64,000 nucleotides of DNA. Origin: Methanoculleus sp. 7T (GTDB taxonomy: Archaea; Halobacteriota; Methanomicrobia; Methanomicrobiales; Methanoculleaceae). The notes beneath the pieces were generated by a model. It saw only the letters and a program-made list of their open reading frames with translations. It had not been told where the DNA came from and made no database searches. The stretch is from NCBI RefSeq assembly GCF_023195915.1, contig NZ_JALPRP010000001.1, positions 124,001 through 188,000 of the forward strand, written 5' to 3'. Positions within the stretch are counted from its first letter, which is position 1; each line of letters begins with the position of its first letter. Of the stretch, positions 22,779-28,104 are shown piece by piece. A program made the translations under genes and the position numbers.

Positions 22779-24677
22779 ATGGCAACACTACAGGGAATGA
22801 GCGGAGTCGATCTTCGGGCGCTGGTAGCGGAGGCTGCCGATCGCCTCCCGCTCTGGGTCGGCAAGATCTACCAGTTCGACGCAAAGACCCTCGGGATCAG
22901 GCTGAACGGGGAAGACCGCACTAAATATCAGTTACTCGTGGAGACGGGGCGGCGTGCCCACTTCACCGCAGAGTTCCCCGCACCCCCGAAGAACCCCCCG
23001 AGTTTTGCGATGCTCCTCCGAAAGCACCTCGAGGGCGGGAAGGTGCTCGGCATCCGCCAACTCGGGCTCGAGCGCACCGTGAGCATCGACGTCGGAAAGA
23101 GGGACACGACCTACCACCTCATCTTCGAACTCTTCGACGAGGGAAACGCGGTTCTCTGCGACGAGGGGTATGTGATCATCAAGCCTCTCTGGCACCATCG
23201 GTTCAAAAACCGAGAGGTGATCCCAGGCGTGGTCTACGCCTTCGACGGGGGCGACTGCTCGGCGCTTCCGCCCGAAGAGTTCCAGAAGATGCTCGCGCAA
23301 TCGGATCGCGACATCGTTAGGACGCTTGCCGTCGGGTGCATGCTCGGCGGCGCGTATGCCGAAGAGGTCTGCCGGATGGCGGACATCGAGAAGAGCGCCC
23401 CCGCCGCGGAGGTGGATGCGGCGGCGGTCCAAGGCGCCTTCGACCGCCTGATGGCCGACGTCGGGAGGCGCCGGGAACCGGTGATCACGCCGTCCGGGTG
23501 CTGGCCGGTGGTGCTTGCCGACGAGGAGGCCCTCCAGCGGTTTGAGACGTTCAGCGAGGCGCTGGACGCCTTCTATCCGAAGACAGTGGGGGAGAAGAAG
23601 GAGGCCGCAGCCGAAAAACCTCGCCTCTCCCAAGAAGAGGTGATCCGTCGGCGCCAGGCGGAGGCGATCAAGGGGTTCGAGAAGAAGATCCGGCGCTATG
23701 AGCGGATTGTAGAGGTGCTCTACGAGAACTACGCGCCCGTCACCGGGATCATAACGACGCTGGATGAAGCGAGCAAGGACCGCTCGTGGCAGGAGATCGA
23801 GCGGGTCCTCAAGTCGAACGGCGATAACCCTGCCGCGAAGATGATCAGGGCGGTCCACCCCGCAGAGGCGGCGGTGGAACTCGACCTCGGAGGAGAGCGG
23901 GTGAAGGTCTACGTCCACGAGACGATCGAGCAGAACCTCGGCCGCTACTACGACCTGATCAAGAAGTTCAAGAAGAAGAAGACAGGCGCACTCTCGGCCA
24001 TGGAACGGGTTATCCCCGAGAAACCCCGGCGGAAACAGCACCTTGTCCTCCAGAAGAAACGATGGTACCACCGGTTCCGCTGGTTCGCCACCTCCGACGG
24101 CGTCCTCGTCATCGGCGGGCGGGACGCCTCCCAGAACGAGGAACTCGTCAAGAAGTATATGGAAGGAGGCGACCTCTTCATCCACGCCGACGTCCACGGG
24201 GGAAGCGTCGTCATCGTGAAGGGCGCCACCGAACACCTGGATGAGGCCGCAGAGTTCGCCGCCTCCTACTCCAACGCATGGAAGGCGGGGCATTTCACGG
24301 CCGACGTCTACGCCGCCCGCCCCGACCAGGTGAGCAAGACGGCCGAATCCGGCGAATACGTGGCCCGGGGCGCCTTCATTGTCCGGGGAGAGCGGCAGTA
24401 CTTCCGAAACGTCCCTCTCGGGGTTGCGATCGGTCTTCAGACTGCGCCCGAGGTCGCCGTCATCGGCGGCCCGCCGGGGGCCGTCACCGAGCGTGCGAAA
24501 GTATGGGTGAGACTCCAGCCCGGACAGTATGAGCCCAACGACACCGCAAAGAAGGTGGTCCGGGCACTCAGGGAGAAACTCTCGGAGGACGAGTGGAAAG
24601 GGCTCAAGAACGCCTTAAACACCGAGGCGGTCGCCGCATTCGTCCCGCCGGGAGGCTCCGAGATCGTGGAACCATGA
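22779..24677 (+). CDS. rqcH: Ribosome quality-control factor RqcH (NFACT family)
   Basis: This 632-residue protein is the archaeal counterpart of bacterial RqcH and eukaryotic Rqc2/NEMF. The NFACT-N region runs from about residue 7 (MSGVDLRALVAE). Two helix-hairpin-helix/coiled-coil stretches (about 280-420, very charged) follow. The NFACT-R RNA-binding domain lies at about 420-550 (KKRWYHRFRWFATSDGVLVIGGRDASQNEELVKKYM). The C-terminal part ends near residue 630. RqcH binds a split large subunit carrying peptidyl-tRNA and adds a C-terminal tail to the stalled chain. Residues 98-99 are Glu-Arg where I recall an Asp-Arg pair important for tailing in characterised members. The stop overlaps the Pelota ATG by four bases. 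Confidence 0.93.
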   Translation: MATLQGMSGVDLRALVAEAADRLPLWVGKIYQFDAKTLGIRLNGEDRTKYQLLVETGRRAHFTAEFPAPPKNPPSFAMLLRKHLEGGKVLGIRQLGLERTVSIDVGKRDTTYHLIFELFDEGNAVLCDEGYVIIKPLWHHRFKNREVIPGVVYAFDGGDCSALPPEEFQKMLAQSDRDIVRTLAVGCMLGGAYAEEVCRMADIEKSAPAAEVDAAAVQGAFDRLMADVGRRREPVITPSGCWPVVLADEEALQRFETFSEALDAFYPKTVGEKKEAAAEKPRLSQEEVIRRRQAEAIKGFEKKIRRYERIVEVLYENYAPVTGIITTLDEASKDRSWQEIERVLKSNGDNPAAKMIRAVHPAEAAVELDLGGERVKVYVHETIEQNLGRYYDLIKKFKKKKTGALSAMERVIPEKPRRKQHLVLQKKRWYHRFRWFATSDGVLVIGGRDASQNEELVKKYMEGGDLFIHADVHGGSVVIVKGATEHLDEAAEFAASYSNAWKAGHFTADVYAARPDQVSKTAESGEYVARGAFIVRGERQYFRNVPLGVAIGLQTAPEVAVIGGPPGAVTERAKVWVRLQPGQYEPNDTAKKVVRALREKLSEDEWKGLKNALNTEAVAAFVPPGGSEIVEP

Positions 24678-26331: not shown

Positions 26332-28104
26332 ATGCGAATTGCTGTTGTGCACCGTGATCGGTGTCACCCCATCAAATGCGGCACCGAGTGTATCCTCTAC
26401 TGCCCGCGTGTCCGGACCGGCGACGAGACCGTCGTCATCGGCGAAGACCAGAAAGCCGTCATATCCGAGGAACTCTGCGTAGGTTGCGGCATCTGTGTCA
26501 AGAAGTGCCCGTTCGAGGCCCTCGATATCGTCAACCTCCCAGAACAACTCGACCAGCCGATCCACCGCTACGGCCAGAACGGGTTCGTCCTCTATGGTCT
26601 CCCGATCCCGGTCGAGGGGAAGGTCACCGGCATCCTCGGGCCGAACGGTATCGGGAAGAGCACATCGGTCAAGATCCTCTCAGGCACGCTCGTCCCGAAC
26701 TTGGGGAGGACCGACGCCGCGGTGTCCTGGAAGGACGTCCTCGACCTCTACCAAGGGACCGAACTCTTCGACTACCTCCAATTGTTGTCCCAGAAGAGCG
26801 TGAAGGTCGCCGTGAAGCCGCAGTATATCGACCAGATCCCGAAGGTCTTCTCCGGGACGGTGCGCGACCTCCTCGCGACCACCGACGAGCGCGGCAGACT
26901 CGACTACTACATCGACCGGTTGTCGCTCGGCGCGATCCTCGACCGGACGATCGGGAACCTCTCCGGTGGAGAACTGCAGCGGGTGGCTCTTGCCGCCTGC
27001 CTGGCACGTGACGCCGACTTCTACTTCCTCGACGAGATCACGCCGTACCTCGACGTCTACCAGCGGATGGCCGCCGCAAACCTGATCCGCGAACTCGCCG
27101 CGGAGCGGCCGGTCGTGATCGTCGAGCACGACCTCGCGATCCTCGACATGCTCGCCGATACCGTGCACATCGCCTACGGAGAACCGGCGGTCTTCGGCGT
27201 CATCACCTACCCGAAGGGCGTTCGGGTGGGGATCAACCAGTACCTCGAGGGGTTCCTTCCTGAAGAGAACGTCAGGTTCAGGGATTACCCGGTGACGTTC
27301 GAGACTCGGGCCCACGCCTCCGAGGCGGACCGAGAGGAACTCCTCGCGTTCCCGAAGATGACAAAGCGTTTCGAGCAGTTCTCGCTCACCGTCGACGGCG
27401 GCGAGATTCGGAGCGGCGAAGTCCTCGGGGTCGTCGGGGCGAACGGTATCGGGAAGAGCACGTTCGCCCAGCTCCTCGCCGGGGTGCTTGAGCCTGATAC
27501 CGGGTCGATGGATACCCGGGTGCGGATCTCCTACAAGCCGCAGTACCTCAAAGGAGACACGGAGGCGACCGTCGAGGAGCTCCTCCGGCAGACGACGACG
27601 AAGTTCAACACCTCGTTCTACCAGCACGAGATCCTCGAGCCTCTCTCGCTCTCACAGCTCCTCCAAGCGCCGGTGAACACGCTCTCCGGCGGCGAACTCC
27701 AGCGTGTGGCAATCGCGATCTGCCTCTCGCGCGACGCAGACCTCTACATCTTGGACGAGCCGAGCGCGCACCTCGATGTGGAGCAGCGGGTGAAGATCTC
27801 TCGGATGATCCGGAAGCACGCCGAAGGACGGGACGCAAGCACGCTCGTGATCGACCACGACATCTACGTGATCGACATGATCAGCGACCGCATCTTGGTC
27901 TTCGAGGGAGAGCCGGGTCTGCACGGCAAGGCAGTCGGGCCATTCGATATGGCGCCGGGCATGAACCGGTTCCTCGCGGCGCTCGGGATCACCTTCCGCC
28001 GGGACAAGAGCGGGCGGCCGCGGATCAACAAGCCGGGATCGTTCCTCGATCGGGAACAGGTCGCGGCCGGCGAGTATTACTACGCAGAGATATCGAAGTC
28101 CTGA
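26332..28104 (+). CDS. abce1: Ribosome recycling ATPase ABCE1 (Rli1)
   Basis: This 590-residue ABCE1 splits ribosomes into subunits after termination or with Pelota during rescue. The N-terminal iron-sulfur domain has CHPIKCGTECILYCP and CVGCGICVKKCP, holding two [4Fe-4S] clusters. NBD1 carries GPNGIGKST and LSGGELQRVALA, NBD2 carries GANGIGKST and LSGGELQRVAIA, and VIDHDIYVIDMIS gives the second H-loop region. The length matches the family. It is the last gene of the rescue cluster; a short oligo-T (28124-28130) follows its stop. Confidence 0.97.
   Translation: MRIAVVHRDRCHPIKCGTECILYCPRVRTGDETVVIGEDQKAVISEELCVGCGICVKKCPFEALDIVNLPEQLDQPIHRYGQNGFVLYGLPIPVEGKVTGILGPNGIGKSTSVKILSGTLVPNLGRTDAAVSWKDVLDLYQGTELFDYLQLLSQKSVKVAVKPQYIDQIPKVFSGTVRDLLATTDERGRLDYYIDRLSLGAILDRTIGNLSGGELQRVALAACLARDADFYFLDEITPYLDVYQRMAAANLIRELAAERPVVIVEHDLAILDMLADTVHIAYGEPAVFGVITYPKGVRVGINQYLEGFLPEENVRFRDYPVTFETRAHASEADREELLAFPKMTKRFEQFSLTVDGGEIRSGEVLGVVGANGIGKSTFAQLLAGVLEPDTGSMDTRVRISYKPQYLKGDTEATVEELLRQTTTKFNTSFYQHEILEPLSLSQLLQAPVNTLSGGELQRVAIAICLSRDADLYILDEPSAHLDVEQRVKISRMIRKHAEGRDASTLVIDHDIYVIDMISDRILVFEGEPGLHGKAVGPFDMAPGMNRFLAALGITFRRDKSGRPRINKPGSFLDREQVAAGEYYYAEISKS

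Follow-up and report, generated by a model that had tools for sequence, protein, structure and literature searches.

The 64,000-nucleotide stretch of the Methanoculleus sp. 7T genome analysed here (the window; contig NZ_JALPRP010000001.1) carries the genes rqcH, pelota, emc6 and abce1 side by side on the plus strand at 22779–28104. A first-pass annotation of the letters alone had described these four adjacent genes as a ribosome-rescue island, with the gene order mirroring the rescue pathway. Curated profiles, scoring above their cut-offs for every gene, bear out the four genes and their arrangement. The comparison of genomes presented below argues for a different account of the order, as a genus-level rearrangement of two older gene pairs, and draws attention to an altered motif in RqcH.

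The rqcH gene (22779–24677), of the NEMF/Rqc2 family, scores 683.7 bits against NF041120 (cut-off 400) and matches PF05833 and PF05670; its product aligns to NEMF and Bacillus subtilis RqcH in the Protein Data Bank (PDB) and has the NFACT-N and NFACT-R domains, the equivalog score and the motif Arg of the NEMF/RqcH family. Its stop codon overlaps the start codon of pelota (24674–25699; TIGR00111, 280.1 bits, cut-off 177.65) in the sequence ATGA at 24674–24677. In 82 of 132 loci an overlap of this length can be read, with start codons chosen in a way that favours overlaps, and translational coupling of the two genes is possible. Pelota has eRF1 domains 1 and 3 and an equivalog-level score, and its eRF1 domain 2 falls under the curated cut-off of 27.1 bits (18 bits, E 0.0038).

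After a 263-nt gap (25700–25962) follows the emc6-like gene (25963–26325; PF19094, 100.7 bits, cut-off 26.7), whose product is modelled by AlphaFold2 with three long helices at a predicted local distance difference test score of 88.6. Only 6 bases (26326–26331) separate it from abce1, or RLI (26332–28104; NF009945, 922.5 bits, cut-off 469), which encodes the ribosome-splitting ATPase with its Fe-S domain (Fer4_RLI), twin ABC domains and an equivalog-level score; residues 1–585 match the archaeal ABCE1 structure 3bk7. Both the ATGA overlap and the 6-base gap had been read correctly from the sequence in the first-pass annotation.

A conserved neighbourhood with a local gene order

We searched the same 100 Methanomicrobiales genomes for each family, tabulating one match per genome and family and, where a gene was split, taking one of its pieces. 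The 95 informative genomes, which leave out four without an rqcH match and one without an emc6 match, all have rqcH and emc6 at most 5 kb apart, with 123 to 4866 nt between profile ends; a few have other small reading frames between the two genes, and three have pelota off the rqcH contig. The neighbourhood of the four genes is thus conserved in the order beyond chance, and is not the peculiarity of a single genome that would have told against the earlier description.

The linear order is another matter. The two pairs are divergent, with abce1–emc6 facing rqcH–pelota, in 77 of the 95 genomes and tandem, as at the window, in 18. All 18 are Methanoculleus, the genus of the window; the one remaining genome of the 19 from this genus that were surveyed (G040) is divergent, as is the only other genus of the window's family (G080). 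A second survey, a scan of genome contigs in the best 80 of 485 relatives, overlaps with the first and is confined to Methanomicrobiales and near relatives; it returned 56 divergent loci, 6 tandem loci and 18 without emc6 in the stretch covered. (One locus of a record titled Thermoplasmata archaeon, L287, has a Methanomicrobiales-like rqcH–emc6–abce1 stretch and is probably a mislabelled bin.) The linear order at the window is a local rearrangement. Because tandem order is local to one genus, the order does not mirror the pathway, and we reject a pathway-ordered operon on gene order.

Inversion of rqcH–pelota in Methanoculleus

To see how the tandem form relates to the divergent one, we set nine tandem loci, that of the window and those of eight relatives, against divergent ones. 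The gene calling was crude: a few loci lack calls for some of the four genes, and in G040 the FKBP gene beside pelota went uncalled. The flanking genes are recognisable on the abce1 side in seven of the nine and on the other side in eight, with the rqcH–pelota block turned between them. This points to an in-place inversion of rqcH–pelota as the origin of the tandem order. In trees the window groups with the divergent loci G040, L229 and L230 (support 99 for RqcH codons, 91 for the concatenated alignment and 50 for ABCE1), so at least two inversion events are likely and a single inversion is not favoured.

Close to the inversion boundary, a copy of a dispersed, partly palindromic repeat (22496–22620) occupies part of the gap upstream of rqcH; the window's own genome has 53 matches to 22470–22620, some of them overlapping on both strands. 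Among 17 loci of the Methanoculleus group, three (G058, L223 and L224) have repeat copies on either side of the block whose main orientations are opposed, and in L225 the copies are direct, although copy orientation is blurred because the repeat is partly palindromic. The five loci of other genera surveyed alongside (G080, G003, G021, G017 and G037) have no copy. The inversion may possibly have run through these dispersed intergenic repeats. Perfect inverted repeats were considered as a substrate and rejected: exact inverted matches between the 1.5-kb flanks reach 15–17 bases in three of 14 genomes and 12 in another three, and eight of the 14 have none of at least 12 bases.

Before rqcH lies a gene for an FKBP26-type prolyl isomerase (21323–22264), and such genes neighbour the cluster in several families of the order.

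The two pairs outside the order

A sample of the phylum comprised 119 genomes, 96 of them outside Methanomicrobiales and drawn from 17 families. Directly upstream of abce1, emc6 is found in 63 of the 96 (14 of the 17 families); the two genes lie on different contigs in 28, are far apart in 3 and one is missing in 2. Likewise, rqcH precedes pelota within 1500 nt in 35 genomes (11 families), with 40 on different contigs, 19 farther apart and 2 lacking a gene. Divergent rqcH and emc6 within 6 kb occur in nine of the 96, from families f7, f11, f15, f16 and f19, pelota lying on another contig in f7. The tandem form occurs in none, though rqcH and emc6 share one contig in only 45 of the 96. Three families (f8, f13 and f14) keep both emc6–abce1 and rqcH–pelota though the pairs lie far apart, which argues that these are two units, not one.

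This survey suggests an old origin for both pairs, a divergent cluster that probably predates Methanomicrobiales, and a derived gene order in the window. Searches of an open library, which lacks most subscription papers, brought up no title or abstract reporting archaeal rqcH–pelota or emc6–abce1 linkage.

Intergenic DNA and the shared gap

The first-pass annotation had placed a likely terminator and promoter between pelota and emc6. A T6 run after pelota (25750–25755, plus strand), where no hairpin was scored, is a possible archaeal terminator, and a TATA-like TTTATAAA can be picked out by eye before emc6 (25834–25841, plus strand). The scan of 22000–28700 for hairpin terminators did no better than shuffled sequence (4 found, 4.5 expected; one on the plus strand at 25876–25892), and this generic scan does not model archaeal promoters; both elements are therefore plausible by eye only. 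About 30 nt before the rqcH start stands a TATA-like CTTATTTAGG (22742–22751, plus strand), and the readable genus rows upstream of rqcH, one row being masked, show by eye either CTTATTTAGG or CTTCTTTAGG.

Where the pairs are divergent, the gap between them is often short, at most 165 nt between profile ends in 43 of the 77 genomes, from families f2–f6. Seventeen aligned short-gap genomes of these five families share, between the two start codons, the consensus elements TATTTTTT.GT and ATATGTA.TTTGGTAT, which lie about 10 bases apart and vary in f3, f4 and f6. We read these elements by eye as putative facing archaeal TATA regions, each about 35 to 40 nt before its gene; if so, the two initiation complexes would overlap. 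The window's family has a longer gap and retains the rqcH-proximal TATA-like stretch before rqcH.

Rfam gave no match within 18000–32000. Downstream of abce1 lies an 88-base direct repeat (28315–28524), with two identical copies and a third, partial one.

The EMC6-like protein

The EMC6_arch profile PF19094 matches the window protein, as it does 24 of 24 aligned relatives, and has no match in a Sulfolobus control. In a VIA-align comparison of the predicted structure, the best rows were human and yeast chains of the ER membrane protein complex (EMC), with Z of 9.4 and 9.1, which we take to be EMC6. Four of the first five rows were chains from EMC entries and the other was a multipass-translocon chain (Z 9.4–7.8); helical bundles reach such scores by chance, and Foldseek was weak (E 3.1 and 5.0) for two of the same chains. 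With that caution, an EMC6-like protein is what the profile, the alignment and the predicted fold all indicate. A YidC/EMC3-type gene (PF01956; G000:C1:682231-682734) lies about 530 kb from emc6. That this subunit may link the island to stalled membrane proteins is a conjecture of the first-pass annotation.

Outside the order, emc6 has further neighbours. It adjoins a threonyl-tRNA synthetase-like gene in seven of the seven loci read in family f9 (L107–L112 and L117; confirmed with Pfam in L110 and L112). In family f10, aRF1, another partner of ABCE1, lies 1–4 kb from emc6 in four of seven loci (L102, L103, L104 and L105, all four tested with Pfam), with ruvC, csl4-type and rpoL-type genes in between in L103. 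We therefore reject a tie of EMC6 to ABCE1 only; its translation-linked setting is broader.

RqcH of the order has replaced a motif Asp

The most surprising point of the analysis concerns RqcH itself. In alignment with the PDB sequences, Glu98-Arg99 of the window protein falls at the position of D97-R98 in B. subtilis RqcH and of D96-R97 in human NEMF. The residue at this position was determined for 156 genomes. Of the 96 order genomes with a match, 94 contributed, two partial matches having been set aside in advance; the other 62 were chosen by family from the 96 genomes outside the order. The Asp of the alanine-tailing B. subtilis protein (D97) is found in none of the 94 order genomes, which have Glu (59) or Gln (35), and in all 62 outside. 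All 156 genomes retain the motif Arg, and 155 of them the Asp equivalent to D9. Loci of the second survey (best 80 of 485 relatives), assigned by title and identity, agree: 70 readable order loci of 73 have 51 Glu, 17 Gln, 2 Ser and no Asp, and the seven loci outside the order all have Asp.

Thirteen N-terminal columns are kept at 95% or more outside the order, and ten of them are unchanged inside it. The three that changed are an Arg near residue 39, the motif Asp and the Phe just before it; in this analysis the motif column is absent from two order rows, which gives 57 Glu and 35 Gln. Since the window RqcH scores as otherwise intact, decay is unlikely.

The residues of the Asp-Arg motif have been described as universally conserved (PMC7494853), and yeast D98A and D98Y proteins do not tail (PMC5562442, PMC7494853). 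In B. subtilis the motif contacts G35, and a double change abolished the preference for tRNA-Ala, although the authors considered the observed conformations alone unlikely to account for specificity (PMC8373112). No title or abstract that came up in the library searches described above reports a change in the RqcH motif.

Tailing had been assigned to RqcH in the first-pass annotation. The identity of the protein stands by profile; the assumption of tailing is weakened, the Asp required in yeast being Glu here, and with that Asp replaced neither tailing nor tRNA choice by the RqcH of the order can be assumed. Quite possibly, the tailing step in Methanomicrobiales is changed in tRNA choice or efficiency.

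Interpretation

Taking together the gene identities, the conservation of each pair, the changed orientation between shared flanks and the conserved gap DNA, we think it probable that the locus represents two old operons, co-regulated where a divergent gap is shared, with an inversion in Methanoculleus and an altered RqcH motif. One operon, rqcH–pelota, would join the handling of nascent chains on the 50S subunit to the recognition of stalled ribosomes; the other, emc6–abce1, would join an EMC6-type membrane subunit to the splitting ATPase. Most of the order genomes examined have the pairs transcribed divergently, in 43 of the 77 from a compact shared gap; co-expression from this gap, not gene order, is most likely what coordinates rescue (Pelota), splitting (ABCE1) and the later handling by RqcH. 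In Methanoculleus the gap would have grown and rqcH–pelota been inverted in place, possibly by way of the dispersed intergenic repeats, leaving a tandem array with apparently separate promoters. We infer co-regulation of the pairs and, so far as there is any, physical coupling of their products.

Several observations weigh against parts of this account. Neither pair was seen in family f10 (0 of 15 in both cases), and f9 has emc6–abce1 in 8 of 21 genomes and rqcH–pelota in 0 of 21, many of these genes being on different contigs; linkage is therefore dispensable. The gap exceeds 165 nt in 34 of the 77 divergent genomes, reaching 4.9 kb in one, so a compact promoter is not general, and the TATA assignments were made by eye. 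Four of the 17 Methanoculleus-group loci (G004, G010, G046 and L230), three of them tandem, have no repeat copy. The motif shift in RqcH is not tied to the cluster, because families f7, f11, f15, f16 and f19 are divergent yet keep Asp. Finally, synteny extends to the flanking genes in several order families, and some of the conservation may therefore be passive. Taken further, this last point becomes an explanation in its own right: the region is simply little rearranged within the order, without functional coupling of the pairs, as the retention of genes on both sides in f2, f5 and f6 and the separation of the pairs in many families of the phylum would suggest. We regard it as unlikely, though it deserves some weight, in view of the retention of each pair outside the order where flanks differ or the pairs lie far apart, the conservation of the short gap at the DNA level in five families and the common frame overlap of rqcH and pelota (which the choice of start codons favours). 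That the linear order rqcH–pelota–emc6–abce1 is itself functional, coupling rescue, splitting, tailing and membrane insertion, as first proposed, now seems very improbable: the genes are real and are neighbours, but only one genus (18 of 95 genomes) has them in this order, which arises by inversion and requires at least two flips on trees that place the window with divergent relatives.

The altered motif leaves room for three readings. Methanomicrobiales may tail with another or a broader choice of amino acid than alanine, or not at all, with the gene still under selection and tied to Pelota and ABCE1; we hold this tentatively, at somewhat under an even chance. A neutral, conservative exchange that keeps alanine tailing is about as likely: Glu is chemically near Asp and can mimic it, the changes reported in yeast were to Ala and Tyr, not Glu (PMC5562442, PMC7494853), ten of the 13 strongly kept N-terminal columns are fixed in the order, and the motif Arg is invariant. 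This reading has to accommodate the Asp in 62 of 62 relatives, at a position called universally conserved (PMC7494853), the uncharged Gln and the change of two further strongly kept positions. Loss of template-free tailing altogether, with RqcH only holding or clearing peptidyl-tRNA on the 50S subunit, would fit the yeast D98A and D98Y proteins (PMC5562442, PMC7494853) and is rather improbable, since with only Glu or Gln (and two Ser) the site still looks selected.

The locus bears on several questions. A 2021 review described the splitting step before ribosome-associated quality control in bacteria as unknown (PMC8012679), and the conserved tie of rqcH to pelota and abce1 offers a candidate route for that step in archaea. 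The change from Asp to Glu or Gln is a clean natural experiment on tRNA choice by NEMF-family proteins, because it affects a residue said to be universally conserved (PMC7494853), without which the yeast protein no longer tails (PMC5562442). The emc6–abce1 pair gives a starting point for asking how the recycling of ribosomes connects with membrane insertion.

Comparison with known systems

The window RqcH shares with bacterial RqcH and eukaryotic NEMF/Rqc2 the domain set, the equivalog-level score, the motif Arg and the D9-equivalent Asp, and differs from them at the motif Asp, where the Methanomicrobiales read have Glu, Gln or Ser. Pelota resembles archaeal Pelota (aDom34) in its TIGR00111 score and eRF1 domains 1 and 3; its central domain is weakly recognised, at 18 and 14 bits in two proteins of the order as against 34 in two from outside. 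ABCE1 is like ABCE1/Rli1 of archaeal structures over residues 1–585, including the Fe-S and both ABC parts, and what sets it apart is the linkage of its gene to emc6. For the EMC6-like protein the closest comparison is the partner of archaeal YidC of the MJ0606 type: Lewis and Hegde (2021) predicted an EMC6-like/YidC pairing for Methanocaldococcus jannaschii proteins and noted an EMC6-like gene sited away from secY and yidC (PMC8675477). The window protein has the same PF19094 match and a predicted EMC6-like fold, and its gene too is sited away from secY and yidC; what differs is that emc6 adjoins abce1 in the window and in 14 of the 17 families sampled elsewhere in the phylum, a neighbour that the accessible text of that paper does not mention.

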